A stretch of 64,000 nt of DNA. Source: Porphyromonas sp. COT-290 OH3588 (lineage in GTDB: Bacteria > Bacteroidota > Bacteroidia > Bacteroidales > Porphyromonadaceae). The notes below the pieces were generated by a model. It made no database searches. It worked only from the letters and a program-made list of their open reading frames with translations, and was not told the DNA's origin. Where the stretch lies: NCBI RefSeq assembly GCF_000769075.1, contig NZ_JRFC01000003.1:62001-126000 (forward strand). The letters run 5' to 3'. Made by a program: the position numbers and the translations under genes. Within the stretch, counting starts at the first letter, position 1, and each line of letters opens with the position of its first letter. Of the stretch, positions 3,712-51,333 are shown piece by piece.

Positions 3712-4131
3712 GGGCGAGATTTATATTTTAGCTCAAATTTCAGAATGTTGATGAGAGAAACGCTTTAGACTAGGGAGAAAAACGGCAGACCGCGTATTTG
3801 GCCCCTAGGAGGCTCTAGATTGTGTCCGACTTCGTTTTGGCACTCCTCTCCAGTCCAATGGAAATAACCACCTAGAACGACATATTTGCAAACGCCTAAT
3901 ATACAAACAAATAAAATATGTTTATAGTTGATTTTATGCCTTCGTGTCGCCCTTTTGAGGATTTCTACCCATCAATCTTCTCGGATTAGTGGGCACATTG
4001 GCGAGAATTAGCCCACTAATCCGAAAAAGTCTTCCCTTTAATTTCCCTATATCGTCGCCTTGATCTCCCAAAACCTCCCTACCGTCCGCCTAAATTTCAG
4101 CGTAATTTGTTTACACACTTTAACCAAAAAC
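3712..4131 (+). repeat. Dispersed intergenic element, copy A
   Basis: One of four diverged copies of an element of about 400 bp found in gene-free gaps (others near 15.4-15.8, 27.6-28.0 and 50.9-51.3 kb). Shared landmarks in order are a left block GGGCGAGATTTATATTTT (as in copy C), a block around TATTTGGCCCCTAGGAGGC starting at 3795, a block starting CCATCAATCTTCTCGGATTA at 3969, and a right end TTAACCAAAAA near 4120. The two middle blocks are 174 bp apart. Only this copy carries a perfect 14-bp inverted repeat (3981-3994 with 4011-4024). No conserved coding frame through the whole element. Confidence 0.7.
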
Positions 4132-4178
4132 TCGAAAAGTAGATTTCTCGAATCTTCGGGTTTTCAATGCTGCGTGCA

Positions 4179-4241
4179 GCGTTGCTACAAGGCAGAACTA
4201 GCAAACCGAAAAGGCGATTGATAATAATCTTGTAGCAACGC
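4179..4241. repeat. 13-bp perfect inverted repeat
   Basis: GCGTTGCTACAAG at 4179-4191 is the exact reverse complement of 4229-4241, with a 37-nt spacer. It lies between element copy A and the promoter of the next gene. It could be a structured RNA or the relic of a small mobile element; the rest of 4132-4376 shows nothing recognisable. Confidence 0.5.
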
Positions 4242-4376
4242 CTCGGGCTGTGTCGCATGAGGGATTGTCCACCGGCCTCTACCCTCGAAACTGTTTAGTC
4301 ATGAGGGTGATTGTTTTTACAGATATAAATTCTAACAAACTCTTTTTTATTAGTAAGTTATTTGATGAAATATCTG

Positions 4377-4384
4377 TACCTTTG
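4377..4384 (+). promoter_or_regulatory. Promoter -7 box for the NagB/LmbE fusion
   Basis: TACCTTTG matches TAnnTTTG and lies 30 bp before the start codon at 4414. The upstream 40 bp are AT-rich without a clear TTG at the standard spacing. Confidence 0.6.
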
Positions 4385-4413
4385 TGGTAGCTCAACTAAA
4401 TAGATAAAATGCA

Positions 4414-6408
4414 ATGAGAACAAATCTTAGTTCGCTTATCAAACTTACAGAGATCCCCGAGCAGTATTATCGCCCGGCCAATGCTCTAGAAGAGGCCGTC
4501 CTAACACGTTACGAGAAGATCCCAACTTTCATCGGAGAAAACGATAAGGAAGCCGCTACCCTACTAGCGCGTGAGGTGGCAGAAGGTATTCGTGCCAAGG
4601 CTGCTGAGGGTAAACAATACATACTCGGACTATCGGGAGGCGAATCTCCTGTGATTGTTTATCAGAAGCTAATTGACCTGCACAAAAACGAAGGCCTTAG
4701 CTTCGACAACGTAGTAGCAGTGCTCGGCTATGAGTACTACCCACTTGGTGCTAATGCGGCTCAGGGCTGTTTGGCTAAGGTGCGTGAGGAGTTTCTCAAC
4801 CACGTAAACATCAAGGCCGAGCATATCCTAGCGCCCAATGTAGCTCTACCAGTAGAGCAGATTAGCGCCGAGTGTGCTGGCTTCGAAGCACGCATTGACG
4901 AGCTTGGCGGGTTGGATATGATCATTCTTGGCATCAGCACGACCTCAAGCATCGGCTTCAACGCCCCCGGCACCAACGCCAACACCTACACACGCCTCGT
5001 GGTGCTAGATCCAGTTGCTCGCAAAGAGGCTGCCAAGAGTATGTTCAACCACCTAGACGAGGTACCACAGAGTGCCATTAGCCTAGGGCTCGCCTCTATC
5101 CTCAAGGCTCGTCGCATCGCTCTAGTGGCTTGGGGCGATAGCAAAGCCAAGCAGATTGCCCAAGCTATCGAGCAGCCACAAAACGACCTTGTACCTGCCT
5201 CTATCCTACAGCAGCACCACAACGCTCGTGTGTACCTAGACCTTGGCTCGGCCTCCCTCCTGACACGCATCAACCACCCTTGGCTGGTAACGAGCTGCGT
5301 GTGGAACAAGAAGCTCATTCGCCGTGCTATCGTATGGCTCTGCGAGATCACAGGTCTACCTATCCTCAAGCTCACCAACAAGCACTACACCGACCACGGT
5401 CTAGGCGAGCTGGTAGCCAAGTATGGATCGGCGTACAACGTAAACATCAAAGTTTTCAACGACATTCAGCACACCATCACGGGCTGGCCCGGAGGTAAGC
5501 CCAATGCCGACGATACCAATCGCCCAGAGCGAGCCAACCCATACCCCAAGCGTGTGATCGTCTTCAGCCCACACCCCGACGATGATGTGATCTCCATGGG
5601 AGGAACATATCGTCGCCTCGTGGAGCAGGGACACGACGTACATGTAGCCTATCAGACCTCTGGCAACATTGCCGTGGGCGACGAGGAGGTAATCCGCTAT
5701 GTGAGCTTCCTGCGCAATGTGTGCAAGCACTACGGCCGCGAAGATGACCCCGTACTACAGAAGGCAGAGGAGATCCGTGACTTCTTGATGAACCACAAGA
5801 AGGAGGGTGAGCCTGAGCGTCTGGACGTACGCTTCATGAAGGGTAATATCCGCCGTGAGGAGGCTCGCACAGGTAGCCGCTTCGTAGGTCTAGATGACGA
5901 CCATATCCACTTCCTCGACCTACCATTCTACGAAACTGGTTTGGTTAAGAAGAATGACCTCAGCGAGGCAGACATCACGATCGTCAAGAACTTCATCGAG
6001 AGCATCAAGCCTCACGAGATCTTCGTTGCTGGCGACCTTGCCGACCCACACGGCACACACAAGGTGTGTCTAGATGCAATCCTAGGGGCTATCGACCTAT
6101 TCAAGCACGAGAAGTGGTACGCCGAGGACTGCCGTGTATGGATGTACCGTGGTGCTTGGGCAGAGTGGGAGATCGAGCACATCGAGATGGCTGTGCCAAT
6201 GAGCCCAGAGGAGCTACGCTTCAAGCGCAATAGTATCCTCAAGCATCAGAGCCAAATGGAGTCTGCGCCATTCCTTGGCGACGACGAGCGCCTATTCTGG
6301 CAGAGATCGGAAGACCGCAACCGTGGTCTGGCTCAGCTCTACGCAAGCCTCGGTCTGGCTTCGTACGAGGCTATTGAGGCCTTCGTACAGTATCATACGG
6401 TAGACTAG
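4414..6408 (+). CDS. NagB-like / LmbE-like deacetylase fusion protein
   Basis: A 664-aa two-domain protein. Residues about 30-280 resemble glucosamine-6-phosphate deaminase (NagB), and residues about 380-640 are a PIG-L/LmbE-type zinc deacetylase domain with SPHPDDD at about 385-391, RREEA at about 481-485 and DPHGTH at about 545-550. This architecture is known in Bacteroidetes as a NagB-like protein of about 660 aa. The usual NagB catalytic residues look lost: the DEY of the base-acting Asp region reads GYEYYPLG, and the DGHxxFNEPG loop reads TTSSIGFNAPG (about 176-186). The LmbE metal site looks intact, so de-N-acetylation of an amino sugar is the likelier activity (inference). It has its own promoter and is followed by a long hairpin. 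Confidence 0.88.
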   Translation: MRTNLSSLIKLTEIPEQYYRPANALEEAVLTRYEKIPTFIGENDKEAATLLAREVAEGIRAKAAEGKQYILGLSGGESPVIVYQKLIDLHKNEGLSFDNVVAVLGYEYYPLGANAAQGCLAKVREEFLNHVNIKAEHILAPNVALPVEQISAECAGFEARIDELGGLDMIILGISTTSSIGFNAPGTNANTYTRLVVLDPVARKEAAKSMFNHLDEVPQSAISLGLASILKARRIALVAWGDSKAKQIAQAIEQPQNDLVPASILQQHHNARVYLDLGSASLLTRINHPWLVTSCVWNKKLIRRAIVWLCEITGLPILKLTNKHYTDHGLGELVAKYGSAYNVNIKVFNDIQHTITGWPGGKPNADDTNRPERANPYPKRVIVFSPHPDDDVISMGGTYRRLVEQGHDVHVAYQTSGNIAVGDEEVIRYVSFLRNVCKHYGREDDPVLQKAEEIRDFLMNHKKEGEPERLDVRFMKGNIRREEARTGSRFVGLDDDHIHFLDLPFYETGLVKKNDLSEADITIVKNFIESIKPHEIFVAGDLADPHGTHKVCLDAILGAIDLFKHEKWYAEDCRVWMYRGAWAEWEIEHIEMAVPMSPEELRFKRNSILKHQSQMESAPFLGDDERLFWQRSEDRNRGLAQLYASLGLASYEAIEAFVQYHTVD

Positions 6409-6430
6409 CTATCTTGACCTACCATAAAGT

Positions 6431-6473
6431 CTAGGGGGCTGTGTCGAATATCACATTCGGCATAGCCCCCTAG
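6431..6473 (+). terminator. Hairpin terminator after the NagB/LmbE fusion
   Basis: A 10-bp stem CTAGGGGGCT (6431-6440 with 6464-6473) continues inward through G-U pairs to a loop of about 5 nt. It ends 20 bp before the next start codon, so it could also act as an attenuator for that gene, which shows no promoter of its own. Confidence 0.65.
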
Positions 6474-7180: not shown

Positions 7181-10100
7181 CTATTGAGTGAGGTTGAAGC
7201 GCAGACTAACCCCAAAGGAGGTATTACGCACGGGGAAGGCGGAGGCGCTAACTAGAGGACGGTTGCTCGTCCATTCGAAGTAAGCCTTTAGGGCGAGCAT
7301 ACGGCTTAGGTCGTACTCGGCACTTAGGCTCAGACGGCTATCCACATTGCCAGAGTTGGCTTGTGTATAGTCGTCTTGTATTTTGCGGATTAGGCTTAGG
7401 TTGTGTCGGTAGCTGTAGTCGGCACGCAGGTTCAGCCCCTTGGCTGAGGTGGAGGTATTGCCCTTGGTGCTACTACCACGGCGTTTGCGCTTGGCTTTGG
7501 CAGGAGAGAAGAGGGCTTTGATGTCGGCTATCTTGTAGCTGGCGCCGAGGTTGAGCTCGTTGGAGCTGGTCTCAATCAGGCGGAAAGCCGATAGGTTGAG
7601 CGTTACAGAGCGGTTGCGCCTCCACTGCGTCGTCAGCGTCAGCCCGTTCTCCAGCGTGATGTCTATGCCTAGCAGGGGGAAGAAGCTCTCTTGGATCGTG
7701 ATTGAAGCGATGTCGTAGGGCAAACTTAGGCGGGGCTTACCGCTTGCACTCGCTTGGTCTGGCACGTAGCCAAACGTTGAAGCCCGATCGCCAACCCAGC
7801 TCGGGAAAGAGGTGTAGTTGTCTACTCGGTAGGTGCCTCGATAGGCGTGGCGGAGTGTAACGTTGCTGAAGAGCTTCTTGAGCGCCTCGATCTTATTCAG
7901 CCCATTGTAGGTAACATTCCAGTTAGGGAGCATAGATAGTAGATCGGGCAGTGGGTTTAGATCTATGCCACCAGCCCCACTCGACTGGGTATAGGCCGAG
8001 CGGAAAGCAGGAATCAGTACTGCCGAGGCATTACGGTCTACCTGTATATTCTCTTCGTTGATGGTCTGACCTGCCCAACCACCTTGAGCGAGAAAGCCTT
8101 GGTTTGGGTAGCTATCGCCGTAGGCCTCCTCTTTGAGGCGACTGACCACGGCATCACGTGAGGCCAAAAAGCGATCGAACTGAGCAGAGCGATAGCCAGA
8201 GTTTGCCTCAGGCGAAGAGAAGATTCCCTTGAGCCCTATGGTAGTCATCACGAAGTCGCCACCGAAGAGGCGTGGGCGTCCCTCGTACATATATTGTAAC
8301 TCGGTGCGATCCGTTCGGGTGTGATTGGCCGATAGACTGATATTCAGGTCACGAATGGGCTGTATCGTGGCCTTGATGTCTAGCACTGCCGAGCGAGAAA
8401 CCACGGCGGGCTGTACGTTTTGCTGGTCGTGTGAGAGCCAACCTCTCTCGGCAGCCCTATCTATGTAGTCTTCGTCCGTGAAGCCAAGCGCAAAGCCCAC
8501 ACCGGGCGACATCACACCGCTCGTGTTTTGCCCCAGAGCAGCGCCAATGCTGGGCAAGAAGCCCGGCAGATGCGTAGAGCCCGTATGGCGATATGATAGG
8601 CTCACGTCCTTAACCATCAGCAGAGTGTAGACTGAGCGATCGATGATAGCACGTAGTGTCGGATTCATTTCCTTGGGCGGCTCAGGCGTTAGGGTCAGAG
8701 TCAGCGTAGAGCTATCCGTACCGAATACCTTAATGGTCTTATCGTCCACCAGCTCTGTCTTGATCGGACGCACTAGCCCAGTGCTGTCTTTGGCAACGAT
8801 CCTCATGCGCTTCGTACCAAGTCCGTGCGCTACCACGAGAGTAGAGTCGGGCAGTAGGTTGAGCGTTTTGACGAAGCTCTTGGGCTTAGGCTTCTCTTTC
8901 TTGCGTTGAGAGGAGGAACTGTTGCTGTTGAACTTCAGCTCTAGCCCCTTGAGATACTTACTCTTGGCATAGAGGTTCTTCAAGCGAAGTTGTCCAGAAA
9001 GCTCGAGATTCATCTGATTCGTAATGACATTCGGCAGACGCAGTTGCTCCTTGGGTAGCTCCGCCCCGAGTGTCCAGTTGTACGCCCCCGAGTAATTGCC
9101 CTGAGCATTGATCCAGTTGAGCGGCTCAATCGCAGAGGTTGGTAGAGTGTAGGTCAGCGAAGTAGTTTGGGCGTAGCGCATCGGCGTTCCCAGCTCCTTG
9201 ATGCTTTTATCTACCGCATACTTCCACTGCGCATAAGCATCGGGGTTCAGCTCTCGATTGACCTGCACGTGTGGCTCTTCGATACGGGCGTCCGTTCCCG
9301 TGGCGAGGGTAAAAATGAGGTTGGGGGTGAGATTCCAATTCAGATTGAGCTTACGATACCAGACGAACTGCTGTGAGAAGCTCACGGGTAGCTTGGTATC
9401 GCCTGCGGCATCGATGTGGTTGCGCAGTTGCTCCTCCTCGTAAGAGCGGATCATCGAGGTCTGCAGGTTCAGCCTGCTAGGCCACAGATTTAGGCCGTAC
9501 TGCTTGAGGTAGCGAGCCAGAGCGCCGTTGCCCTTGAGCGAAGCGAAGGGACGAATCGAACGCCACTGTGGGCTAAAGTCGTAGTTAAGGCCGGCTTGCC
9601 AGTTGATTTGATGCAGATATTCCGTCTGCGGATTCTGCACTTCGGTGAAGTTGTGCGAAAAGTTGGCCGAGAGGTTAGCAGGGTCGTAGGGCATTGGCTC
9701 CTTGCTTCGGATGCCGACGTTGATGTTACTTAGGCTGAGCGATCGGGTAATACGGCGGTCGATGGCGTAGTTCATGATCGAATCCCTCTGTGCACTCGTG
9801 GCGACTGATTCTAAAGCGTCCTTGAGCTTGACGTCCTCGTCCATCGGATTGTACTGAGGCGTGTTCTGCTCGTCGGTGATGTTGTAGTAGACGGGGATAG
9901 AAACCTTGGCCTTCTCTGGGAAGAACTTGCCAAGCTCTAGGTTCGTAGAGAGGTTGATGCTACGGCGATCCTCGATCTGACGTTCGCTCAGAGATTGGTC
10001 GATCGCCCCAAAGCCTGCGGTAGACATCTGCCCACGCAGGTTGAATGCTCCCAAATCGGATAGCTGAACCGCTAGGTTGGCGTTGGCCGCCCAACCGCCC

Positions 10101-13100
10101 TCTTCGTGGTAGTCGCCCACACGCAACTCATTGACCCATACTTCGACGCTACGCACCTCTCCGCTATTATTGCGTAGACCAATCATGATGGTACGCACGT
10201 TGGAGAGGGACGGATTGCCGAGTATGCTGATACTATTATTCGTGGCGTCGGGATCGGGCTGGCTGAATAGCTCAAAGAGTGAGAAGCCTGCCAGCCCACG
10301 TGCGACAGCTTCGTTGCGCTTGCGTTTGTGAACGATCAGGCCATCTAGGTCGATATTAACAAAGTTGGCATCGGGCCAGACACGCCTCTGGTCTACGTCC
10401 GAGTAACCATTGTATCTACCCGACTGAGTCAGCTTGAGCGGAACGGAGTACTCGTAGTAGTTGTTGCGGTAGTCCGAGCCAAGACGTACAAAGACTGATA
10501 TATCTCCGTCTTGGGTATTGGTATTGTCCTCGACGAGCTGCTCGGCGTGGACGAAGAGCTGTAGGCGGCGATAGCGTCGTAGATCGTAGGAGGTATTGCG
10601 GTAGATCGCACGTGCATCGTCGGGTGCGATCTGGCGGAGCTTGAGGCTGAGTGACTGCTCATTGAGCTGAGTGCTCTGCGTTTGTTGGGCATCGAGCGAG
10701 CGAGGCACACCCGGGGGCAACACGTAGTTGATGGGCGTTCGGTCGCCGTCTGCCTCGATATTGACAGCACTAACCGAGATCTGCGCCTTCGTAATAGGTG
10801 CGACCTTGCCGTGTAGAGGCTGATCGTACAGACGCCAGTCACCACGCACCAGATGCAACGCTCCGAAGCGCAGATTGGTCTGTTGGGCAAAGCCCTTGAG
10901 GTAGATGCGCATAAAGCGCATCGAGCGCAGGTCCGAGATCCCCCCAATAGCCGAGGTGTACTGCGATAGGGGTACTTTGAACTGATACCAAGTAACCTTA
11001 GAGTTCTGCCCATTGCGCAGACGAACATCTGCCTCTCGGCTAGCCACGATATAGTTCTGGCCCACACGCAAGTCCTCTGGGCGCAGCGATATTTTGTACT
11101 CGTAGTAGCGATCTAGCTCGTTGAGGTTATTGTCTTGGTTGATGTCCTCGACATCAGGAGCCACACGGCTCGCCACACTGTAGTCGCTAGAGCCTGTGGC
11201 CTCGGCGGAGTTGCCCTCTACGCCGTTGTAGTACTTGTAGCGATCGAGGATAGAGAGGCGTGCAGCATCGAAGTCGTCCCCACGATAGTGGTGGAAGTTG
11301 TCGCCCCCCGGGTCATTGATTGGGCTAAACGGATCGCCAGCCCACCGACCGAGGGTCTCGCCCGAAGCGATACGCTTGAGCTGATCAAGGTAGTTCCTAT
11401 AGCTCTCGTGCTGCTGTTCCTCGGCAGTAGTGAGGCCATTGAAGCCGACGTCCTGCTTAGCTCTTGCCCCGGGAGCATTGTCGAACGAATACCCTACGCT
11501 CTGCCTGCGAGGCACACGCCCCCAAACGGTCGTTTCCATGGCCGTAGGGTCATCAGTAAGGGGAATACCATTCTCGAAGAACTTCTTCTCGTCCTTGAGT
11601 ATATCCTCGGATATATCCCCGAGGTTGAAGTACAAATCTCCTCCCTTAGCACCTGTGCTGTGGACGAATGGATCCATCAGCCAAAACTCAAGATACTCGA
11701 CATTGGAGGCCTCGAAGTCGCTTTGGTCAATCTTGCGCATGATACCACCCCAGCTCTCCTCTGGTTTGTCTAGTAGTCCCGAGGGAAGCATACGTTCCAG
11801 ACCTAGATTGTACGGGCCTCGCTCTTGGGGGTAGAAGCTCAGATTGAGTGTCTGCAAGAAGCTCACCTGATTGACATTGAGATCTCGGTAGGGGAATAGC
11901 TCACGCATCTCTACCTCACGCACGAAGTGGTTACTTACCAGCTCAGGATTGTTGCGAATGTAAGACGGCGTGAGGCTACTGCGCTCTCGTGTGAAGATGG
12001 GGTCAATGTTGTACCACGACAGCAAGGCTCGATCGTAGCCCGTAGCTAGATAGTCGCTCGGTGAGGTCAGCTGACGAGAAGCATCGAAGGGGACAGAGGC
12101 CAGCGACCAAGCGTACGGATTCATCAAGTCAATCTCGCTGCGTGAGCTCTCGAAGTCGTCGAGATAGCTATTGCCCTGCGCATAACGGCTCTCGTAGTGG
12201 CCCGGGATTAGATGAGCGAACTCTGCGTCTAGACTAATCTGCGAAGCAGTCGTCAGGTCTAGCAGAGGGAGCTTGTCGAGCATATTGGTCAGCCACTGGC
12301 TCTTGGTGCGCCAGCTGAGGTTCGTCCCCCAAAGGAAGTTTTGCATCGACTCATCGCCCAGATTGGTCTTGGTGGTCAGAGGGAGCTCCGAGAGATACAT
12401 CGCCGTGGCTCCTAGCTGCAACTGAGGCGTGAGCTGATAGCCAAGGTCTAGCCCCAACATTGTCTTGCGCTGCGTGCCGAAGCCTCCACTATCCTCTAGG
12501 CTAACCTCCACGGGAGTACGTGCGCTCTGGATCTGCGTGTTGATGATCTTCACTACACCCGAGAGATAGTCTACCGTATAGTCTACATTCTCCTGTAGAG
12601 TAACGCCTCCTGCCGTTACACGAACCGTCCCAGGGGTTACATTCATAGCTCCGAGCGCAATCTCTCCACTACCCGATGCCTTGTATTCGCCCCTCAAAAT
12701 GTACTTATTCTTCTCTGCCACCTGCTGAGCCTTGACCTTAGTCTGGGTATATAGCTCTCGATAGACGAACTCGTCCCCTGCATTCTGCTCGGCTAGAGTC
12801 TGGCCAAATGGCTCGACCGAGGGGAAGTAGATCAGACCTCTATTGGCATTGACGGTCAGCCCCTCCACATAGTCGAAGCGGCCATCGCTGTGCTGCTGCT
12901 CACGCTGATTGATTTTGTCCAAGCCCAACACCTCTAGTAGCCTCTGCCCCTTGAGGCTCCCAGAGGGCAGGTAGGGGACATAGCTACCCGTGCCGTCGCT
13001 ACGATAGAGGACGTCTAGACGGAAGCCCTCGGATTGCAGGTTGTACACCCCTGCTCCTAAGCTATAGACATTGCGCATCATATTCTCCCAGTAGGGCGCA

Positions 13101-14590
13101 TTGGGGCTCATATTGCTCCCCTTGATGAGCTTGACGAAGAGATTGTCGGTAGATTGGTCAGGTCTGTCGGACGAAAACTCGCCCACACGATAGAGTTGAC
13201 CATTGTAGGTATATTCGTAGGCCACGGCTAGCACCTCATCACTCTGGAGCTTAGAGGAGAGTGTAATGTAGCCAAGGCTTGCGTTTAGGTCGTATTCGCT
13301 CTCGCCGAGCCTGCGAGCAGACTCGAGCTTGTCGTAGTCCGACCCTGCGGTCAGCTTGCCCGATAGCACTCGGGTTACCTGATCGATGCGTCGTAGCTCG
13401 GGGTCGGCACTTAGAGTGCTGTAGAGGTCATTGGCAGAGTTGCGTGGGTATAGGCTCCCCGAGTTGGTAATAGTAATCGAGGGGTTGTGCACACGCCGAG
13501 CATCGCCAAGGTCGGCGAAAGCCACTACGTTGCGAGCATCGTCGTACCGCCCACGTTTGTTCGTCACCCAGACCTCTACGCGATTGATCTTGACGGCAGA
13601 GCGCACGTATGGAAGCGAGCGCAGCGCTTCGTTGTACTGCTGGCGGAAGAAGTCCCCGAGGAAGAAGTGCCTATTCTCATCGTAGTTGGCAGCCGATAGC
13701 TCGAAGCTCGTCGTCTGCGCTCCTCCCTTGGTGGCGATGCGCTTGCGCTGTGTACGCTGCTGGCTGACTAGCATATCGAGAGTTAGCTTACCAAACTGCA
13801 TCTTACTATGCACTCCGAAGAGAGCTCCTCCACCGTTGATGAGCGAGTTCTTGGGCTGCATCGATACATTACCCGCCTCGATGAGCTTGACGATGTCGTC
13901 CTCCTCGCCCTCGAAAGCCAGTTTGAGCTTCTTGGAGTCGAAGTCGAACGTGCTGGCTGTATTGTAGTTGAGGTTGAAGTTGAGCTTATTGCCTACAGAG
14001 GCCTGCACACCTGCTTGGATCTTCTCGTCGAAGTCGAAGAAGGTATTGCGCCGAGCACGCTCACTTACTGAGGGGTTGTCGGTGGCGTTGCTTTTGATGC
14101 CAGCCGATAGCTCTGCCGAACCTTGCAGGCGTAGCTTCACTCCGCCGGGGCCGAAGATGCGCTCCGCTGGCCCTATCCCAAACTCCATATCTAGCGGGTT
14201 AAAGCCTTTTTTCTTTTGCTTGTCTTCCTCGGGGCGATTGAGCAGGCCAAAGTAATGGGCATCGCTACGCTTAGCCATATAGGCCATAAATTCGGCTGGA
14301 GTATAGGGGATAGGAGTGCCTAGGCGTTGCTCGCCTAGGTAAGTCGTCAGTAGATAAAGGTTAGTTCTGGGATCGTACTCAAATCGTGTGGTCAGGTTCG
14401 ACGGACGCCGAGGTGAGAAGACGGACGCCTCTCGGCTTATATCTTCGGCACTGGAGGGCAGAATAACACGAGGAGAAATAACCTTGACGCTATCTCCCTT
14501 GCTCTTGCTCTGTGCAGAGGCGTGACTAAGCCCCAAGGTCAGACAGCCTAACCCCACACACAGCACTTGTATCAGCTTTCTGCGCTCCAA
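7181..14590 (-). CDS. sov: T9SS outer-membrane translocon Sov/SprA
   Basis: A 2,469-aa outer-membrane protein, matching the Sov (P. gingivalis) / SprA (Flavobacterium) family of about 2,400-2,500 aa. It forms the giant beta-barrel pore through which type IX cargo proteins leave the periplasm. An N-terminal signal peptide is visible (cleavage near SHASA-Q, about 26), followed by a long, strand-rich sequence with repeated alternating polar/hydrophobic segments, and a C-terminal barrel ending in a hydrophobic-aromatic strand (SLRFNLTQ). A short basic, Lys/Arg-rich loop is seen near the C-terminus. It has its own -7 promoter box just upstream and stands alone. The identity rests on length, export signal and recognisable family segments; it is the longest gene here. 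Confidence 0.93.
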   Translation of the reverse strand: MERRKLIQVLCVGLGCLTLGLSHASAQSKSKGDSVKVISPRVILPSSAEDISREASVFSPRRPSNLTTRFEYDPRTNLYLLTTYLGEQRLGTPIPYTPAEFMAYMAKRSDAHYFGLLNRPEEDKQKKKGFNPLDMEFGIGPAERIFGPGGVKLRLQGSAELSAGIKSNATDNPSVSERARRNTFFDFDEKIQAGVQASVGNKLNFNLNYNTASTFDFDSKKLKLAFEGEEDDIVKLIEAGNVSMQPKNSLINGGGALFGVHSKMQFGKLTLDMLVSQQRTQRKRIATKGGAQTTSFELSAANYDENRHFFLGDFFRQQYNEALRSLPYVRSAVKINRVEVWVTNKRGRYDDARNVVAFADLGDARRVHNPSITITNSGSLYPRNSANDLYSTLSADPELRRIDQVTRVLSGKLTAGSDYDKLESARRLGESEYDLNASLGYITLSSKLQSDEVLAVAYEYTYNGQLYRVGEFSSDRPDQSTDNLFVKLIKGSNMSPNAPYWENMMRNVYSLGAGVYNLQSEGFRLDVLYRSDGTGSYVPYLPSGSLKGQRLLEVLGLDKINQREQQHSDGRFDYVEGLTVNANRGLIYFPSVEPFGQTLAEQNAGDEFVYRELYTQTKVKAQQVAEKNKYILRGEYKASGSGEIALGAMNVTPGTVRVTAGGVTLQENVDYTVDYLSGVVKIINTQIQSARTPVEVSLEDSGGFGTQRKTMLGLDLGYQLTPQLQLGATAMYLSELPLTTKTNLGDESMQNFLWGTNLSWRTKSQWLTNMLDKLPLLDLTTASQISLDAEFAHLIPGHYESRYAQGNSYLDDFESSRSEIDLMNPYAWSLASVPFDASRQLTSPSDYLATGYDRALLSWYNIDPIFTRERSSLTPSYIRNNPELVSNHFVREVEMRELFPYRDLNVNQVSFLQTLNLSFYPQERGPYNLGLERMLPSGLLDKPEESWGGIMRKIDQSDFEASNVEYLEFWLMDPFVHSTGAKGGDLYFNLGDISEDILKDEKKFFENGIPLTDDPTAMETTVWGRVPRRQSVGYSFDNAPGARAKQDVGFNGLTTAEEQQHESYRNYLDQLKRIASGETLGRWAGDPFSPINDPGGDNFHHYRGDDFDAARLSILDRYKYYNGVEGNSAEATGSSDYSVASRVAPDVEDINQDNNLNELDRYYEYKISLRPEDLRVGQNYIVASREADVRLRNGQNSKVTWYQFKVPLSQYTSAIGGISDLRSMRFMRIYLKGFAQQTNLRFGALHLVRGDWRLYDQPLHGKVAPITKAQISVSAVNIEADGDRTPINYVLPPGVPRSLDAQQTQSTQLNEQSLSLKLRQIAPDDARAIYRNTSYDLRRYRRLQLFVHAEQLVEDNTNTQDGDISVFVRLGSDYRNNYYEYSVPLKLTQSGRYNGYSDVDQRRVWPDANFVNIDLDGLIVHKRKRNEAVARGLAGFSLFELFSQPDPDATNNSISILGNPSLSNVRTIMIGLRNNSGEVRSVEVWVNELRVGDYHEEGGWAANANLAVQLSDLGAFNLRGQMSTAGFGAIDQSLSERQIEDRRSINLSTNLELGKFFPEKAKVSIPVYYNITDEQNTPQYNPMDEDVKLKDALESVATSAQRDSIMNYAIDRRITRSLSLSNINVGIRSKEPMPYDPANLSANFSHNFTEVQNPQTEYLHQINWQAGLNYDFSPQWRSIRPFASLKGNGALARYLKQYGLNLWPSRLNLQTSMIRSYEEEQLRNHIDAAGDTKLPVSFSQQFVWYRKLNLNWNLTPNLIFTLATGTDARIEEPHVQVNRELNPDAYAQWKYAVDKSIKELGTPMRYAQTTSLTYTLPTSAIEPLNWINAQGNYSGAYNWTLGAELPKEQLRLPNVITNQMNLELSGQLRLKNLYAKSKYLKGLELKFNSNSSSSQRKKEKPKPKSFVKTLNLLPDSTLVVAHGLGTKRMRIVAKDSTGLVRPIKTELVDDKTIKVFGTDSSTLTLTLTPEPPKEMNPTLRAIIDRSVYTLLMVKDVSLSYRHTGSTHLPGFLPSIGAALGQNTSGVMSPGVGFALGFTDEDYIDRAAERGWLSHDQQNVQPAVVSRSAVLDIKATIQPIRDLNISLSANHTRTDRTELQYMYEGRPRLFGGDFVMTTIGLKGIFSSPEANSGYRSAQFDRFLASRDAVVSRLKEEAYGDSYPNQGFLAQGGWAGQTINEENIQVDRNASAVLIPAFRSAYTQSSGAGGIDLNPLPDLLSMLPNWNVTYNGLNKIEALKKLFSNVTLRHAYRGTYRVDNYTSFPSWVGDRASTFGYVPDQASASGKPRLSLPYDIASITIQESFFPLLGIDITLENGLTLTTQWRRNRSVTLNLSAFRLIETSSNELNLGASYKIADIKALFSPAKAKRKRRGSSTKGNTSTSAKGLNLRADYSYRHNLSLIRKIQDDYTQANSGNVDSRLSLSAEYDLSRMLALKAYFEWTSNRPLVSASAFPVRNTSFGVSLRFNLTQ

Positions 14591-14875: not shown

Positions 14876-15003
14876 CCTTTCACTAAATTTTAACGTAGCT
14901 TGGCGAGCCACGCCCATCGTTGATCATGGGTGATGGGGATCCCGCGGGGATTAATTTCAGTCGCCCTCAGGGGCGTACTGCAGCTTTCCTCGAAGCCTTT
15001 AAT

Positions 15004-15152
15004 AGCTTTGCAGGTCTTCTGACTCACAATCTCGCCTCGGTCTACCTTCCCAGTAGCACAGAACTACCAGTGGTATCGACTCGACCAAAGGCTTGACGAT
15101 CGTACACAGCAGCGGGACTGTCCGAGATTCGCACTCGATTCCCTTTTAAGCT
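15004..15152 (-). promoter_or_regulatory. Cobalamin (B12) riboswitch
   Basis: Read on the minus strand, the conserved core of the cobalamin riboswitch appears in order: AAAAGGGAA, GTGCGAATC, GGACAGTCCCGCTGCTGT, a CCACTGG segment, CTGGGAAGG, then GAGTCAGAAGACCTGC (the B12 box). A short closing helix AGCTT/AAGCT joins 15152-15148 with 15008-15004. These elements bind adenosyl- or methylcobalamin and usually repress B12 transport or synthesis genes; in Bacteroidota typically btuB-like receptors. Here no such gene follows. The two cobalamin-synthesis genes of the window lie 20 kb away on the other strand. Confidence 0.9.
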
Positions 15153-15406
15153 CCAGCCCCCACATCAATAGACGCCAAGGCAAGGAACACAAAGCCGACG
15201 GCAAAGGTAAGCATTTTATCTATCTATCACAAAACTAGCAGATAGAATATGTTATCCTAGCTAGAGGTCTATACGACTAACCTAGGACTTGGCAATAGCC
15301 TTAATGTGCAGCGCAGCAAGACGGAAGAGGGAGAAGCAGAAGCCACCTATCCATGCCTCTCGTCTAAGGGCATCAAGGCGGTGTACAGTGTATGCTCATT
15401 CGTCTA

Positions 15407-15790
15407 CTTTTTAGTTAAGGAGTGTTAAAGATTTACTAACGGATTTAAGAGAATAAAGCCCAAGTTTATAAAGGAGCTCTGGGCGACTAAAGGAAATCGA
15501 AGGGAAGCCCTTGCCCTATTGGTGGGCTAATCCGCCGAGGTGTGTCTACTGAGCCGAAAAGATTGATGGGAAGAAACACCTCAAAATGCGGTTCAAGCCC
15601 ATACAAGCGCTGCAAAATACTCTCTATACACCTGAATACCAGCATGCTAAAAACAAGACGATTTAAGGCAGGTATTTTCATTCGGTGGGGGCAAGGAGCC
15701 TAAACGAGGTAGGACGCCATACAGAGCCTCGTAGGCGGCAAATATAGGATTTGACACTTTTAGTCCTCTCGGACGGGGAGAACATAGGCA
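15407..15790 (-). repeat. Dispersed intergenic element, copy D (inverted)
   Basis: The minus strand shows the same landmarks as copies A-C: TATATTTGCCGCCTACGAGG with its TATTT starting at 15744, CTTCCCATCAATCTTTTCGG with its CCATC starting at 15569 (spacing 175 bp), and a right end TTAACTAAAAAG near 15416-15407. Boundaries are approximate. A 64-codon frame inside it (15681-15487) is probably not a gene. It points toward the riboswitch transcript. Between 15238 and 15406 nothing recognisable is seen. Confidence 0.65.
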
Positions 15791-15903
15791 GTGTGTCTAA
15801 ACACACTCCAAAGTGTTAAATATCGCAAACGACAATACGCCACTGCACAGAAGTTCTAAAGAGCTAAGGCTAAACAAGTAGATTGACGGCTCGTAGCCTA
15901 GAG

Positions 15904-17130
15904 TTAGATGATCTGGCTCTCTTGGCTAACCTCTAGGCTACGACTCTGGGACCAGAGCACCAGAAGAGCCAAGAGAGAGAGCACAGCCTCAACCCCGAAG
16001 AGCGCCGTGTAGCCGAAAGCATCAGCCATACGTCCACTCAGAGCAGCCACGATCAGCCCACTGAGATGGGTAATCATAATCTGGATTGTGAAGTCCGTTC
16101 CCTCAAGCTCTGGACGTACCCGATCCATCGCCAGAGTATAGATCCCCACAGACGATAGGCCATAGGCACCCCATACCCAAGCAATCGCCACATACATCTG
16201 TATCTCGGAGGGGATACCAAGAGATATATACCAATAGAATAGGGCTGCCGTTAGACTAAGACACAAGAAAGATGCTAAAGCCGTCAGGTGCCCCATTCGT
16301 CTTAGGAGCAGACCGCCAGCCATAGCACATAGCGCTGCCACAGCAGAGCCGAAGACACCGAGCATCACGGCGATACGCTCTGTCGAGTAACCTAAATCAA
16401 CCATAAAGGGCTTAACCATCGCCATAACACCGATGATGCCCGAGTAGTAGAGCAACAGGAGCAAGATATGTCGCTTGCTAGATAGAGATGTGAAGAAACT
16501 GGGGATATCTCGCAAATTAATGCTGCGGCGGCTGCGTGGCGCAGACTCATATAGCCGATCTCGTCGCCTGCGCAGCCACAGTGGGAGAACAGCTAATACG
16601 ATAAACATAGCCAGCAAACTAAGCACCCACTGCCAGCCTAGATGATGATAAGCTACCAGCAATACCCCCGTACCGAAGAGGCTACCGACGAAGCTCCCCC
16701 CAGCCTGCATGCTATTACCTAGCCCACGCTCAGAACCTCTGAGCGAGAGTATTGCATACTTATCCACCGCAATATCCTGAGTGGCAGAGGCAGCGAAAGA
16801 GAGGATTACCAACAGGAGTATGAGGCCAAAGTTCGTCTTGAGCTCAAGCAGCCCAATACCAAGAATGATGCAGGCGTAGAATAGCTCCGAGAGTATAATC
16901 CAGCGCCTAAGGCTTGTATAGTCACGAGCATGATGATCGACCACGGGCGCCCACAGGAGCTTGACAATCCACGGCAGCTTAATGAGCTGCAGTAGCCCAA
17001 TCTGCGAGAGTGAGTACTGCTCCTGCCTCATAATGACAGGTAATACCGTGGAGAAAAAGGCCATCGGTATAGACTGGGCGATGTACAGACAGAAGAGCGT
17101 CGGGAGCTTGAAGGGATCTCTGGGCTTCAT
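15904..17130 (-). CDS. MFS permease, AmpG/RhtX-FptX type
   Basis: A 408-aa inner-membrane protein with about 12 predicted transmembrane helices. The start (LPTLFCLYIAQSIPMAFF), KLLWAPVVD near residue 57-65, and ATQDIAVDKYA near 115-125 are typical of the peptide-acetyl-CoA/AmpG branch of the major facilitator superfamily. This branch includes AmpG (muropeptide import) and the RhtX/FptX single-subunit siderophore permeases. The gene follows the TonB receptor gene by 36 bp on the same strand, so the two probably form an operon. That partnership favours import of a siderophore or similar chelate after outer-membrane uptake (inference); muropeptide uptake is the alternative. Confidence 0.82.
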   Translation of the reverse strand: MKPRDPFKLPTLFCLYIAQSIPMAFFSTVLPVIMRQEQYSLSQIGLLQLIKLPWIVKLLWAPVVDHHARDYTSLRRWIILSELFYACIILGIGLLELKTNFGLILLLVILSFAASATQDIAVDKYAILSLRGSERGLGNSMQAGGSFVGSLFGTGVLLVAYHHLGWQWVLSLLAMFIVLAVLPLWLRRRRDRLYESAPRSRRSINLRDIPSFFTSLSSKRHILLLLLYYSGIIGVMAMVKPFMVDLGYSTERIAVMLGVFGSAVAALCAMAGGLLLRRMGHLTALASFLCLSLTAALFYWYISLGIPSEIQMYVAIAWVWGAYGLSSVGIYTLAMDRVRPELEGTDFTIQIMITHLSGLIVAALSGRMADAFGYTALFGVEAVLSLLALLVLWSQSRSLEVSQESQII

Positions 17131-27619: not shown

Positions 27620-28042
27620 CTCGGAGAAGCACACATTCTTTTACATTTAAGTATATCAATGACGTGCTTTTTGTTTGCTGATCGGACAAATGCGAAACCT
27701 CGTATTTGCCCTCTAGCAGGCCCTAGATTGCGTTCTAGACAATTTTGGCACTTGACCCTAGACACGAGGGAATAAGCGCCTAAAAACGCCAAGGTGCAAC
27801 CCGTTAAATCAAAGCAATATAGGAAATCTGATCAAGAAATTTGGTATCCATACAGCTTTCTTTTTGGTTTTTCTTCCCATCAATCCTCTTGGATTAGTGG
27901 ACACATCTCGGAGGATTAACCCACCAATTGCCTGAGATTAGTCCTTCAATTCTCTCCAAGCTCTCCGATGGTCTTGACGAACGCCCCCTCAATTGGGTCA
28001 AATTTGAGCATCATCCATTCACACATCTTAACAAAAAAAGCA
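27620..28042 (+). repeat. Dispersed intergenic element, copy B
   Basis: Shares with copy A a continuous block of about 45 bp around TATTTGCCCTCTAGCAGGCC (TATTT at 27703) running to TTTTGGCACT, a second block CCATCAATCCTCTTGGATTA at 27877 (spacing 174 bp, identical to A), and the right end TTAACAAAAAAAG near 28029. The left boundary is unclear. It fills most of the gap between the divergent yfhO and lamin-tail genes; the open frame on the minus strand here (27792-27517) is not supported as a gene. Confidence 0.68.
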
Positions 28043-28134: not shown

Positions 28135-29708
28135 ATGAGAGAGAGTACTCGATATACTATAATACTATACATCGCCATTGGCCTATACCTATTACTAGGC
28201 ATACCCCTATCCGCCCAGAATTGGCAAGCTGACCTATCCAACAATGGCCAACCCTCTACCCTGACTTGGCGACACGACACCGAAGATTTCGAGATAGCCA
28301 AGGGCTGGCTATCACTCGATGCCCCACGTGCTAGAGGGCGCAAAATCATCACGACCAACATCACCCTCGGCAAACGCATGCGCTGGCAGGGCATCGTGCG
28401 CCTAGATCAGCCAACCTCAGCCCACAACCATGCCTACATACTGCTCTGCTGCTACGAGCAGGACACATCAACCCAACAGTACGACTACCTCGCTCTGAGT
28501 ATAGGCGGTGGCGAACGCCGCAGCGTAGCTCTAGTAAGCCTTCGCATTCACTGGCGCTCCCACCTACAAGGCGATCAACGGCTCAAGCTGATCAACGAAC
28601 AGCCACTACTAGACACCAGCGAGCTCCCCGAAGCGCTTACTCAAGGGCTTCGATACGATGTCCGCTACAGTCCCGAGGGCGTGCTAGCCCTTAGGCTTCT
28701 GCGCGACCAAACCGGCAGAAAGCTCTATGCCGAGCAGACCGAGTGGCACATGACACCGCCGAAGAGCAATAGCCTAGGCATCATCTGTGTCTATACTGCT
28801 ACTCGTCATAGGGGTATGCACTTCTCAGGCCTACGCCTTGACGACACATTGCCCTCTCAAGAGGAGGATACGAGAGAGGAAGCTACACCCTCTGGCACAC
28901 CAGAGCAGGCACTGATGCTTAGTGAAGTCATGGCCAATCCGAGAGCAGGAGCGCCTGAGTATATAGAGCTGTACAACCCCAACGAGTCGTCAACCTCTCT
29001 CGAGAACTATCGGCTAGGAGTAGGTAAGAGCAGAGGGCAGCTCAAGCTAGTCAGCCTAGGCGATCTCGACGAGTTACCTGCCAAATCCTACACAGCTCTG
29101 AGTGTAGCCCCAGAAGATCTCTGCCGCCACTACACCCCGATGCCCCGCCAGAAAGAGTTAAGGGCATCGCACTACCACGACTAAGCAATACGGGTTGTCT
29201 GATTGCGCTCTACCGAGGCGAGGAGCTGGTAGATGAGCTACTCTACACGCCAGATCTACTAGAGCGTGGCCTCAAAAGCAAGAGAGGTATTGCCCTAGAG
29301 CGGGAGCTAGGGGGCTCCAGCACAGAGCCTCGCTGGCGGTCTGCCCGTGCTAGGGCTGGCTATGCGACACCAGCTGCTCCCAACTCTCTAGAAGCAGACA
29401 ACGAGCTCGACGACAAGAGACAAGCAGATAAGCACAAGAACATAGAAGATCTGCTCCGACTTGCCGAGGAGCAACCCAAGTGGCTACTCAGCCTACACCT
29501 CTACACGCCTACGGGAGCCGAGCTGTGGGGAGTAAGTGGCTCCACTGCTCAGCAGTGGGTGAGGCGACTTGCTCACAATCTAGGACATTTGCACGACCTC
29601 CCCACTAGGCTCCAAGGTCAGCTCATACTTGTGGCACGGCTAAGCGATACCTCCGGCCAGATTAGAGAACAGATGATCCAACGCATTATCCCGATCGCTC
29701 GCCCATGA
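28135..29708 (+). pseudogene. Lamin-tail-domain protein, frameshifted
   Basis: The gene is split by a frameshift. Frame 1 runs 28135-29184 (signal peptide ending near PLSAQ, a beta-rich region, then the lamin-tail start LSEVMANPRAGAPEYIELYN at about residue 262). The domain continues in another frame from about 29160: KGIALPRLSNTGCLIAL, then GIALERELGG and ARAGYATPAAPNS, the typical end of a lamin-tail domain, running without a stop to TGA at 29706-29708. That stop overlaps the next gene's ATG (ATGA), as expected for the true 3' end. The total of 1,574 nt is one short of a multiple of three, so a single-base loss near 29152-29160 explains it. Lamin-tail proteins of bacteria are secreted, often nuclease-linked or structural. 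A sequencing error or programmed shift remains possible; no classic slippery heptamer is seen. Confidence 0.85.
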
Positions 29709-48507: not shown

Positions 48508-49944
48508 CTACTGACTAAACTGAGAGGATACAACCTCTAGTTGGAGCTTCTCTGGTCGCTTGTCCATGCGCACAAAGCTAGGGAACAAGAACTCATTGAG
48601 TCCTATGGTCTGCACATATTCCCCATTGCGTGTTATCTCTCTATCCACTGGCACAAGGCGCAACTCCAAATCTCGATCGACACTCCAACCAGCCTCCCTG
48701 CTATAGCGTGCATGGTGCTTGAGGTGCTCTGTCACAAGACGAGCTATGTTGGAGAAGTTATAGAAACGTGCAGAAACGCTATACCGAGAGGATAGATAGC
48801 TCGTGGCTGCTCTACTGCGCTCGGTCAACCCTTTGGCAAAAAAGGAGGTTACCGAATCCTTAGGTATGAGCAGCATATAGGAAGGCGGATTGAGCAGAAG
48901 ATCTTTGGGGTTCTTTACATCAATCTGCATCTGGGCATCGGCCAAAGACCAATCGGAGCCGATGTTGATCTTGGCTTTGCCTTTGAGTAAACGAGCCATC
49001 TGCTCTTTTTTGAGCTCTATGGCTCCAATCACCCCAGCAGGCTGCTTGATATAGAAGTATTCATCGCTAGGGACTAGAAGCACATCGGAGTACGGATTGC
49101 TCAAAGCATTGATATGCCCCGTCAGCTTGGTACTAATAAAAGCCTCAGTAGCGACTGGTTTTTTCGCTTTATCCCCCTTAGCTTTCTCACTCTCTGCCTT
49201 GTCGGGAGTGTAGGTGTAGTAAATCACCAAGGCCGTGCTCTCCACCTGCAGCACATTGCCACGCCCCGTAGTTGGGGTGACCAGCAGAGAACCTAGCACA
49301 TCTTTGTCGAAGCTCTCTTGAGTGTCGAATAGATAAGGCTTCTCCTTGGATAGGTCATAGATGCGCTGCCCAACCTTAGTATCAATAGGGAGGGCTATGG
49401 TCAGCACAGAGTCACGGGCCGAGTAGTGGCGCCAGAAGCTATTGCTACTGATGTTGAGGTGCTTCTCCCCGATTAGGTTCTCTGGCTTGCGATACTGCTC
49501 TAGCGCCTCTGGGGTGGTAGAGTAGGCCATAGTACCCAGCCCTTTGACCTCGTAGATCGAGAGCTTCATCTCCGAATTAACGTCCCCGATAGATCGTTCG
49601 TAGCCGAGCATCAACTTAACCGAGTCAATCTTACCTCCTAGTGGCTCACGGGCGAACTTAAACCTCGGCGCCGTACGCAGGCGGGCGACAAACTCTCCAT
49701 GGAAGTCCCCGTACAGAGGGTCGGAGATCTCTCCAAGAAGACTAGTGGTACTACCGGAGGAGTAGACCGACTCCGCCTTAACGCTGCTAGCCTCGAACTG
49801 GAGCCTATGTAGCTCACTATCTACTTTATCTCTGGGCGACTGGATAGACTCTCCTATGCGAGAGAGCTTATCCTCTTGGTCACATGCCCCCAAAACTAGG
49901 CACCCCAGCAAGAGGGCTCCTAGTTGGCTTACGAGCGACTTCAT
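48508..49944 (-). CDS. DUF4270 lipoprotein
   Basis: A 478-aa predicted lipoprotein: signal ending CLVLGAC (lipidated Cys about 21), then a beta-rich body with the SLLGEISDPLYGDF motif (about 68-81) typical of DUF4270. The function of this Bacteroidota family is unknown. It follows the GT5-like gene with an ATGA overlap, an arrangement found repeatedly in this phylum, so the two products may serve one process. It ends at a strong terminator. Confidence 0.82.
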   Translation of the reverse strand: MKSLVSQLGALLLGCLVLGACDQEDKLSRIGESIQSPRDKVDSELHRLQFEASSVKAESVYSSGSTTSLLGEISDPLYGDFHGEFVARLRTAPRFKFAREPLGGKIDSVKLMLGYERSIGDVNSEMKLSIYEVKGLGTMAYSTTPEALEQYRKPENLIGEKHLNISSNSFWRHYSARDSVLTIALPIDTKVGQRIYDLSKEKPYLFDTQESFDKDVLGSLLVTPTTGRGNVLQVESTALVIYYTYTPDKAESEKAKGDKAKKPVATEAFISTKLTGHINALSNPYSDVLLVPSDEYFYIKQPAGVIGAIELKKEQMARLLKGKAKINIGSDWSLADAQMQIDVKNPKDLLLNPPSYMLLIPKDSVTSFFAKGLTERSRAATSYLSSRYSVSARFYNFSNIARLVTEHLKHHARYSREAGWSVDRDLELRLVPVDREITRNGEYVQTIGLNEFLFPSFVRMDKRPEKLQLEVVSSQFSQ

Positions 49945-50744
49945 ACGATCTTGTCATAAAATTCATTGTAGGCATCAGCATAGTCCTCTGTGCCTTGATA
50001 GGGGAGGAAGGGTGTATTGGTCTTCTCAATATAGGCCATCAGCTCAGGATCAATATGCTCACTACCCTGTACGACACCATGAGCATGATGAATAGCTAGG
50101 CGCATGAGAGCCTTATAGTCAGTCTTACCCTCCATCATCGCCACCGATGGGGTTTTGATGTTGTCGAACTTCAGCTTCTCAAACAGCTCCTCAGGCATAA
50201 CACACTGCTCCTCGTCATTGTAAATAGTGAAGATGAACTTGGCCTTCTTCAGGCATGGATCATCGTGGTAGACCTTCTTGAGGTAGATCATAGCGAGGGC
50301 AGTAAACCAGCCGTGGCAGTGAATGAGGTCTGGGATCCAACGCAGCTTCTTGACTGTCTCGAGTGCTCCACGCACGAAGAATATGGAGCGCTCATCGTTG
50401 TCATTGGCTCCCTTATTGTCGGGTCCATAGAGAGATTTGCGCTTGAAGAAGTCATCATTGTCGATGAAGTACACCTGCATACGTGCAGAGGGGATAGAGG
50501 CCACCTTGATGATCAGAGGGTGATCATTGTTATTAATGATCATATTGATCCCCGAGAGGCGGATCACCTCGTGGAGCTGATTACGGCGCTCGTTGATCAA
50601 TCCATATCGAGGCATGAAGAGCCTTACCTCATTTTTCCGCTCCTGAATGAACTGCGGCAGATTTCTCGACAGCTTCGAGATCTCTGTCTCGGGTAGATAT
50701 GGAAAAATCTCCTGCGATATATACAATACTCGTTTAGACTTCAT
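49941..50744 (-). CDS. Glycogen/starch synthase-like GT5 N-terminal domain protein
   Basis: A 267-aa protein that looks like only the N-terminal half of a glycogen synthase (GT5): VLYISQEIFPYLPETEISKL at the start, EVRLFMPRYGLINERR, and DLIHCHGWFTALAMIYLK (about 138-155). The C-terminal nucleotide-sugar half is absent and the last residues belong to no GT domain, yet the frame is intact. Such short forms occur in other Bacteroidota, so this is probably the native gene rather than a truncation. It may be a regulator or partner subunit rather than a full synthase. The frame runs 20 codons further upstream; the ATG at 50744 gives the family start. It is followed by DUF4270. Confidence 0.85.
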   Translation of the reverse strand: MKSKRVLYISQEIFPYLPETEISKLSRNLPQFIQERKNEVRLFMPRYGLINERRNQLHEVIRLSGINMIINNNDHPLIIKVASIPSARMQVYFIDNDDFFKRKSLYGPDNKGANDNDERSIFFVRGALETVKKLRWIPDLIHCHGWFTALAMIYLKKVYHDDPCLKKAKFIFTIYNDEEQCVMPEELFEKLKFDNIKTPSVAMMEGKTDYKALMRLAIHHAHGVVQGSEHIDPELMAYIEKTNTPFLPYQGTEDYADAYNEFYDKIV

Positions 50745-50836
50745 TATACTTTGTTCTTTTCTTATCCTGCTTCTCCCCTCTGTGACCGCCCAAGCGATAC
50801 GCACGAGCAGAGATAGCCAAACCTACAATTAGGGTG

Positions 50837-50844
50837 CAAAGTTA
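50837..50844 (-). promoter_or_regulatory. Promoter -7 box for the GT5-like gene
   Basis: TAACTTTG on the minus strand, about 93 bp before the ATG at 50744. No TTG at the usual spacing. Confidence 0.5.
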
Positions 50845-50931
50845 CGAAAAATCTACCACTTGCGCACCAAAGCAAGCATAGCGTCCCATAGCCACAGCTC
50901 GCTGCGACGGTTCATCACTGGCTCACTTGTA

Positions 50932-51333
50932 GGGCGAGATTTATATTTTCACTCACTTTTCAGATTGTTGATGGGACAACCTCAAGCTCTCCTAGACTCA
51001 GAGAGCAAACTGCATATTTACCCCCTAGGAGGCGCTACACGAGGCGCTGATAGATTTAGGCTGACAGACTCCATCGGCAAAGAGATCGCTCAACCAAGAG
51101 AGTCCTCACAAAGCACTAGACAACAACACCTTAATCCAGATCTCATAAAACGAAGGCCCCTATACGCCCTATTCATCGGGAGTTTCGTCCCATCAATCTT
51201 GGCGAATCGGTGGACACATCGCTCTAGCTTAGTCCTACAGTCCAAGAAAATCTTCCCAGCAATCTATCGACCTATACGAGGCGACCTCTCTCAAATCACC
51301 ATTAATCCATTTGCATTTCTTAACACAAAAGAT
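50932..51333 (+). repeat. Dispersed intergenic element, copy C
   Basis: Begins with GGGCGAGATTTATATTTT, as in copy A, then CATATTTACCCCCTAGGAGG (TATTT at 51015), CCATCAATCTTGGCGAATCG at 51190 (spacing 175 bp), and a right end CTTAACACAAAAG near 51319-51332. The open frame through it on the plus strand (50860-51354) is in a different frame from those in the other copies and is not taken as a gene. The tRNA promoter starts 100 bp later. Confidence 0.66.

Follow-up and report, generated by a model that had tools for sequence, protein, structure and literature searches.

About 150 copies of a non-coding DNA element of almost exactly 413 bp are located between genes, roughly every 14 kb, in two sister species of the Porphyromonas group. 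The sequences of the copies have drifted far apart while their length has stayed locked, and the copies coincide with most of the points at which gene order is broken between the two species. They therefore look like a maintained DNA-binding or chromosome-organizing site rather than an RNA or a classical transposon, although protein binding and architectural function are inferred from sequence and gene order alone.

Copies in the window

The window is a 64,000 bp stretch of the genome of Porphyromonas sp. COT-290 OH3588 (assembly GCF_000769075.1, contig NZ_JRFC01000003.1, positions 62,001 to 126,000). An earlier note, made from the sequence of this window, described four intergenic copies of about 400 bp with fixed internal spacing, and this observation was confirmed. 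No fifth copy was found in the window. The four copies are given here in profile coordinates. Copy A (3719-4131, + strand; profile hit 350.7 bits) is a full 413-bp element in the divergent gap between the beta-eliminating lyase gene (2246-3625, - strand) and the NagB/PIG-L fusion gene (4414-6408, + strand). Its conserved block 1 (3793-3820, CGTATTTGGCCCCTAGGAGGCTCTAG) is among the most conserved columns of the family. Block 2 (3962-4045, TTTCTACCCATCAATC...GGATTAGTGG...CCCACTAATCC...TTCCCTTTAATTT) contains four CCCAYCAAT-like motifs, one of them inverted, and the length of this segment is invariant in 82 of 83 copies. The conserved right end is located at 4109-4131 (TTTACACACTTTAACCAAAAA). Copy D (15407-15820, - strand; 249.5 bits, profile positions 46-413, left ~45 bp diverged) lies between the MFS transporter gene (15904-17130, - strand) and the cobalamin riboswitch (14992-15204, - strand). 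Copy B (27627-28039, + strand; 260.9 bits, profile positions 10-412, left end diverged) lies in the divergent gap between the YfhO-like gene (24962-27454, - strand) and the lamin-tail gene (28135-29184, + strand). The diverged left part of B and D comprises ~60 bp. Copy C (50939-51331, + strand; 180.8 bits) lies between the starch-synthase-like gene (49941-50804, - strand) and tRNA-Asn (51489-51565, + strand). It is the outlier in length (393 bp), with about 21 bp missing near the right end. All four copies lie in gene gaps; the 164-aa ORF over copy C is a mechanical ORF. The neighboring genes of copies A, B and C were assigned by Pfam, and the flanking genes in the window are functionally unrelated.

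A promoter-like motif, TACCTTTG, was found to the right of copy A, pointing away from it (4378-4385, + strand), upstream of the riboswitch to the right of copy D (15202-15209, - strand), and upstream of tRNA-Asn to the right of copy C (51456-51463, + strand).

Copy number, length and sequence

A profile search identified 94 full copies in 1.38 Mb of the genome, which is 60% of it (about 156 copies genome-wide), and 37 copies in 0.91 Mb of one sister species. No other genome searched has the family; 24 species of the genus are copy-free. Chance is excluded: reversed-sequence controls gave no profile hit, and the 16-mer TTTCTTCCCATCAATC with up to 3 mismatches occurs 227 times in the genome against 13 times for the reversed pattern. 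Of 68 copies, nearly all are 412-415 bp long at a median identity of 53%. Over 83 copies each internal segment varies by 0 or ±1 bp almost without exception, and no compensating indels between segments were found, so that each segment is rigid by itself. A copy carries a median of 131 substitutions but 2.4 indel events. Length differs by more than 2 bp in 5% of copies against their nearest relative, but in 50 of 96 ordinary orthologous gaps that are only 15% diverged. The tree of copies is star-like with long terminal branches (median 0.34 substitutions per site), so selection on each copy in place is implied. Almost no truncated copies or fragments were found in the 1.38 Mb.

The family is non-coding, open stretches being of chance length in all frames. 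The consensus fold energy of 91 copies was 0.0 on both strands, and the pairing excess of antiparallel helices was no better than that of a parallel-strand control. A search of Rfam gave no match. No conserved promoter was found inside the element, and no 10.5-bp periodicity was seen in the conservation profile. The consensus ends are not inverted repeats, and neither inverted matches near the two ends (against mispaired controls) nor direct matches within 60 bp of the ends exceeded controls. A small palindromic family was found near the right ends in a minority of flanks, but it is not part of the element.

Genomic context and comparison with the sister species

Copies are located upstream of promoters. 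Of 69 divergent gaps 40 carry a copy, against 2 of 67 convergent gaps (p 3e-13), and the difference also holds for gaps of equal size. The left neighbor points away in 57 of 68 copies and the right neighbor in 50 of 67. The statement of the earlier note that the right end always faces a transcription start holds in the window but does not generalize; family-wide, a copy lies upstream of promoters, usually on both sides. Outward-pointing TAnnTTTG promoters are enriched on both sides and peak 50-250 bp outside both ends, at variable distance from the copy end. Only 2 pairs of copies are closer than 5 kb, against 9.75 in matched random gaps (p 0.001), and the coefficient of variation of the spacing is 0.60 against 0.73 (p 0.03), a regularity beyond gap availability. 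The family is absent from a 68-kb interval holding a conjugative element, so it is not hopping fast.

Gene adjacency across copies is conserved in the sister species in only 3 of 43 cases, against 54 of 89 across copy-free gaps of 150 bp or more (p 1e-9). Even so, genes with a copy upstream keep one in the sister species (20 of 42, against 1 of 38; p 2e-6), with its orientation randomized (14 same, 11 opposite). Copies flanking the same gene in the two species are mostly not orthologous: they are not each other's closest relatives and their ranks are random, so individual copies turn over. Misassembly is an unlikely cause of the breaks, as two copies share exact words of median 24 bp in the sister species and 16 bp in the present genome. 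The association with rearrangement is correlational, since gene order in this genus is also lost between copy-free species.

Interpretation

The favored explanation, held tentatively and at somewhat less than even confidence, is a resident, lineage-specific family of double-stranded DNA elements, each held by selection as one rigid unit. The analysis itself establishes the fixed length and internal spacing at about 53% identity, the lack of conserved RNA structure, the position outside the promoters of outward-pointing genes with preference for divergent gaps, the spacing around 14 kb with avoidance of close neighbors, the replacement of parts of copies by other copies, and the coincidence with most rearrangement points while the same genes keep some copy on their 5' side. 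The remainder is inferred: proteins, none of which was identified, would bind the conserved blocks, including the repeated CCCAYCAAT motifs, in helical register and fold the DNA into a defined complex. This complex, probably architectural or insulating, would act as a boundary or anchor between neighboring operons, for example as a barrier to the supercoils shed between divergent promoters or as a chromosome-folding site. Ectopic recombination between copies, or breaks in the gaps that hold them, would swap the neighboring chromosome blocks, and rearrangements would survive there because they leave operons and promoters intact and each gap keeps one copy. Confinement to two sister species is odd for a core architectural site, and the turnover of individual copies, the lack of a 10.5-bp periodicity and the merely correlational link to rearrangement also count against this explanation. 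A further reading, considered possible but less likely, is that the lineage has evolved a genome-wide set of about 150 long, spacing-locked sites at divergent operon borders, one per ~14 kb, which divide the chromosome into modular blocks, act as topological or architectural boundaries, and are the sites at which the blocks are reshuffled between species.

The interpretation given in the earlier note is partly supported. Its inference that constant spacing despite divergence means selection was right, and the family is undescribed as far as could be searched. Its suggestion of a regulatory or mobile element remains possible, but as a DNA-level site. Its suggestion of a structured RNA, for which the constant spacing and a conserved inverted repeat at profile positions 257-312 could be cited, is not supported by the folding, covariation and Rfam results and is close to refuted.

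The main rival, considered possible but less likely, is a non-autonomous transposable element, MITE-like in role, with a strong preference for gaps upstream of promoters and with target immunity. Replicative transposition within the chromosome would leave copies at inversion end points, and hence at synteny breaks, and the locked length would reflect the needs of the transposition complex. High copy number, intergenic location, restriction to two species, mutual avoidance of copies and breaks of gene order at copies agree with this view, as does species-specific amplification (5 species changes on the tree against 31.6 by chance). The closest copies lie near each other on the sequence designated C23, although local spread was not significant on C6 or C13, and two sites are empty in the sister species. 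Against it, the empty sites are not clean insertions, no terminal inverted repeats or target duplications exceeded controls, fragments are almost lacking, and long terminal branches without length change argue for selection on each copy. No copy with an internal gene was seen. An autonomous transposon that shares the ends of the element may still exist: no split left and right halves around a gene were found in the 1.38 Mb, but 40% of the genome lies outside this sample. No match was obtained in viral contigs, phages or plasmids. No IS200-type transposase or serine recombinase was found in either species, while tyrosine recombinases are present in unremarkable number.

A bidirectional cis-regulatory element (upstream activating region) for the two flanking promoters, spread by recombination, appears improbable. 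The position relative to outward promoters, the conserved gene association with changing neighbors and the independence of orientation agree with it, but 413 bp with spacing locked over the whole length is far longer than known bacterial activator sites, the distance to the promoter is variable, and the flanking genes in the window are unrelated in function. It is still less likely that the elements are passive markers of fragile gaps, kept alike by gene conversion. Gene order is indeed scrambled between copy-free species, the orientation of copies is random relative to the gene, and copy-free divergent gaps of 300 bp or more are also often broken (7 of 10). However, co-directional gaps with a copy are broken in 20 of 22 cases against 22 of 66 without (p 3e-6), divergent gaps in 20 of 21 against 7 of 14 (p 0.003), and gene conversion alone does not explain 53% identity with locked length. 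Invertible promoter segments flipped by a site-specific invertase are very unlikely: copies face the same gene with either end about equally often in the two species, but no flanking inverted repeats above control and no serine recombinase were found, and inversion does not explain the loss of gene adjacency.

Comparison with known elements

Bacterial interspersed repeats are normally short and palindromic, or decaying transposon remains. Neither kind explains a long repeat whose copies share only half their bases yet keep their length to the base pair, spaced through the chromosome and lying where gene order breaks. If the copies are boundaries, this species pair gives a natural system with discrete, sequence-defined sites for testing whether bacterial chromosomes are divided into supercoil domains by fixed DNA elements. 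If they are a transposon, they show an element under strong constraint on its whole body and a link between transposition and block-wise genome shuffling.

The BrickBuilt MITE of Porphyromonas gingivalis (PMC4596501) is likewise intergenic, multi-copy and non-coding, belongs to the same genus, and has segments described as bidirectional promoters. It has 19 copies of 84-991 nt built of 23-nt tandem repeats with leader and tail and terminal repeats GAGACCTTTGCA, whereas the present family has about 156 copies of fixed length, no tandem repeat unit and no terminal inverted repeats. MITEs in general, as defined in PMC4596501, are of 50-1000 bp, high in copy number, intergenic and without a gene inside, as is the present element; it differs in the lack of terminal inverted repeats, target duplications and fragments, and in a length locked while the sequence diverges. 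The REP/BIME repeats of enterobacteria also have many intergenic copies and a proposed role in chromosome topology, but they are short palindromes, typically at the 3' ends of genes, and tied to a Y1 transposase (RAYT). The present element is 413 bp long, lies on the 5' side of genes and avoids convergent gaps, and no Y1 transposase (PF01797) was found in either carrier genome. The invertible promoters of Bacteroides are intergenic, near promoters and variable in orientation, as are the present copies, which number about 156 and lack flanking inverted repeats and a serine recombinase.

Identification and copy number

The observation in the earlier note of four intergenic copies was confirmed, each lying, give or take a few bases, where it had been placed. 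A profile built from copy relatives locates the copies at 3719-4131 (+), 15407-15820 (-), 27627-28039 (+) and 50939-51331 (+) and finds no fifth copy in the window, while reversed sequence gives no profile hit. In the window's own genome (G000, 2.29 Mb in 48 contigs, of which the window is contig C23, positions 62001-126000) the 16-mer TTTCTTCCCATCAATC occurs 227 times with up to 3 mismatches, against 13 occurrences of the reversed pattern. A total of 1.38 Mb of this genome was read as stretches and contains 94 full copies and almost no fragments, which projects to about 156 copies in the genome; as the remaining 40% of G000 lay outside these stretches, an autonomous longer relative could have been missed.

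Taxonomic range

Among the 26 species of the genus, only one other genome carries the family. This genome (G018) is a fragmented MAG filed as Porphyromonadaceae bacterium S17M_Sa_46, of which 0.91 Mb was read, and it was the only other source in an exact scan of 84,980 species. None of 392 other genomes of the order, a sample that did not include G018, contains the first conserved block with up to 2 mismatches, whereas G000 contains it 102 times. No match was found in viral contigs, phages or plasmids. G018 is the sister species: its NagB/PIG-L protein is 97% identical to that of G000, against 87% for the next species (G019), which is copy-free in the 60 kb read. The corresponding gene of the window (4414-6408) encodes one protein of 664 aa that carries both a glucosamine-6-phosphate isomerase domain and a PIG-L/LmbE deacetylase domain; a match is found in 10 of the 26 species of the genus.

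Structure of the element

The copies are noncoding. The conserved parts are the left end (about 40 bp, diverged in about a quarter of the copies), a block around CGTATTTGNCCNCTAGNNGGCTCTAGA with a following 60 bp, a block of 84 bp with four CCCAYCAAT-like motifs, one of them inverted, and the right end TTTACA...TTAACNAAAAA. An AT-rich, poorly conserved middle separates the first two blocks, and a poorly conserved stretch of 70 bp precedes the right end. The median pairwise identity is 53%, yet the length is 412-415 bp in almost every copy. Taken by segment, the length varies by 0 or +-1 bp in each, with no compensation between segments. The typical copy differs from the consensus at 131 sites but has only 2.4 indel events. 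As an alignment-free yardstick, orthologous copy-free gaps between G000 and G018, which are 15% diverged, differ in length by more than 2 bp in 50 of 96 cases, whereas copies compared with their nearest relative, although more diverged (27% on average), do so in 5%. Together with a star-like tree with long terminal branches, this means that indels are selected against in individual copies.

A consensus fold of 91 copies has an energy of 0.0 on both strands. The Watson-Crick excess in antiparallel helices is no higher than in a parallel control, and the strong column couplings reflect two subfamilies of the CCCAYCAAT block. A search of Rfam returned no match. No 10.5-bp periodicity is visible in the conservation, so the step from rigid spacing to a protein-DNA complex is inference. 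The interpretation in the earlier note, which offered a structured RNA or a regulatory or mobile element under selection, is partly supported: selection on the element is upheld, but the RNA reading is not.

A second right end (profile positions 343-411), the only tandem right end seen, is located at 707910-707978 of contig C6 of G000, 34 bp beyond a full copy. A lone copy of the sister species' subfamily type, 79% identical to a G018 copy, is located among G000-type copies at C6:650731. Five of the most similar copies of the genome (78-90% identical) lie within 52 kb of each other at 145032-196776 of contig C23, the contig of the window; relatedness falls with distance on C23 but not on contigs C6 or C13. 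A separate small palindromic repeat of the GTAGCGACGC...GCGTCGCTAC type, about 85-130 bp long with inverted ends, lies just right of some copies, as at 4160-4260 of the window, right of the copy at 3719-4131, and at C6:670300-670400; 28 of 190 flanks share such sequence with another flank.

Genomic context

The copies lie in large gaps. Based on gene calls made here by codon bias rather than on a published annotation, 40 of 69 divergent gaps, 24 of about 500 co-directional gaps and 2 of 67 convergent gaps hold a copy, and the preference for divergent gaps remains at equal gap size (p 6e-5). Promoter motifs of the form TAnnTTTG, the Bacteroidetes -7 motif, are enriched 50-250 bp outside both ends and point away from the copy. 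The claim in the earlier note that the right end faces a transcription start is thus true of both ends. In the window, a cobalamin riboswitch (14992-15204) precedes an open frame of 2469 aa (7181-14590, called from TTG).

The mean spacing of the copies is 14.4 kb. Against random gaps matched for type and size there are too few close pairs, with 2 under 5 kb against 9.75 expected (p 0.001). The largest copy-free interval on C6 (465-534 kb), the only long one on this contig, contains at 480-530 kb an integrase and TopB-like, Mob-like and Tra-like proteins, named by eye from their sequences, and is read as a probable conjugative element that the family has not entered.

Gene order in the sister species

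The genes neighboring a G000 copy on either side are adjacent in G018 in 3 of 43 testable cases, against 54 of 89 for copy-free gaps of 150 bp or more (p 1e-9). For co-directional gaps alone the values are 2/22 against 44/66 (p 3e-6), and for divergent gaps 1/21 against 7/14 (p 0.003). Whole inter-copy blocks of 10-15 kb are found moved or inverted as units. G000 genes with a copy on the 5' side keep a copy there in G018 in 20 of 42 cases, against 1 of 38 for genes with a large copy-free upstream gap (p 2e-6). The copies concerned are not each other's closest relatives, and the end facing the gene is the same in 14 cases and opposite in 11. At the one site conserved on both sides, the left flank and the left ~110 bp of the copy are orthologous, but the interior, the right end and about 120 bp of the right flank have been replaced. 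A recent pair on C23 likewise shares the sequence from profile position ~58 to 133 bp beyond the right end, but not the left end. Parts of copies plus adjacent spacer are therefore exchanged. Misassembly is an unlikely cause, since copies share exact words of only 16-24 bp at the median.

Possible mechanism

The analysis establishes a DNA-level unit of locked geometry that is maintained at the 5' sides of genes, avoids other copies, is exchanged among copies and lies at most breaks of gene order between the two species. A multi-site protein assembly with a boundary or anchoring function is inferred from these properties, and both the protein binding and the function belong to the inference. 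The chief rival is a non-autonomous transposon with target immunity whose transposition rearranges the chromosome. It explains the spread, the self-avoidance and the breaks well, but not the lock on length in copies with long terminal branches, nor the lack of fragments, terminal repeats and target duplications. As the genus as a whole scrambles gene order even where the family is absent, the association between copies and breaks does not distinguish cause from effect.

Comparison with known families

Literature searches for a dispersed family of this kind gave nothing in the collection of papers searched. Serine invertases and Y1 transposases are absent from both carrier genomes. BrickBuilt, the described MITE of P. 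gingivalis, differs from the present family in its defining features (PMC4596501).
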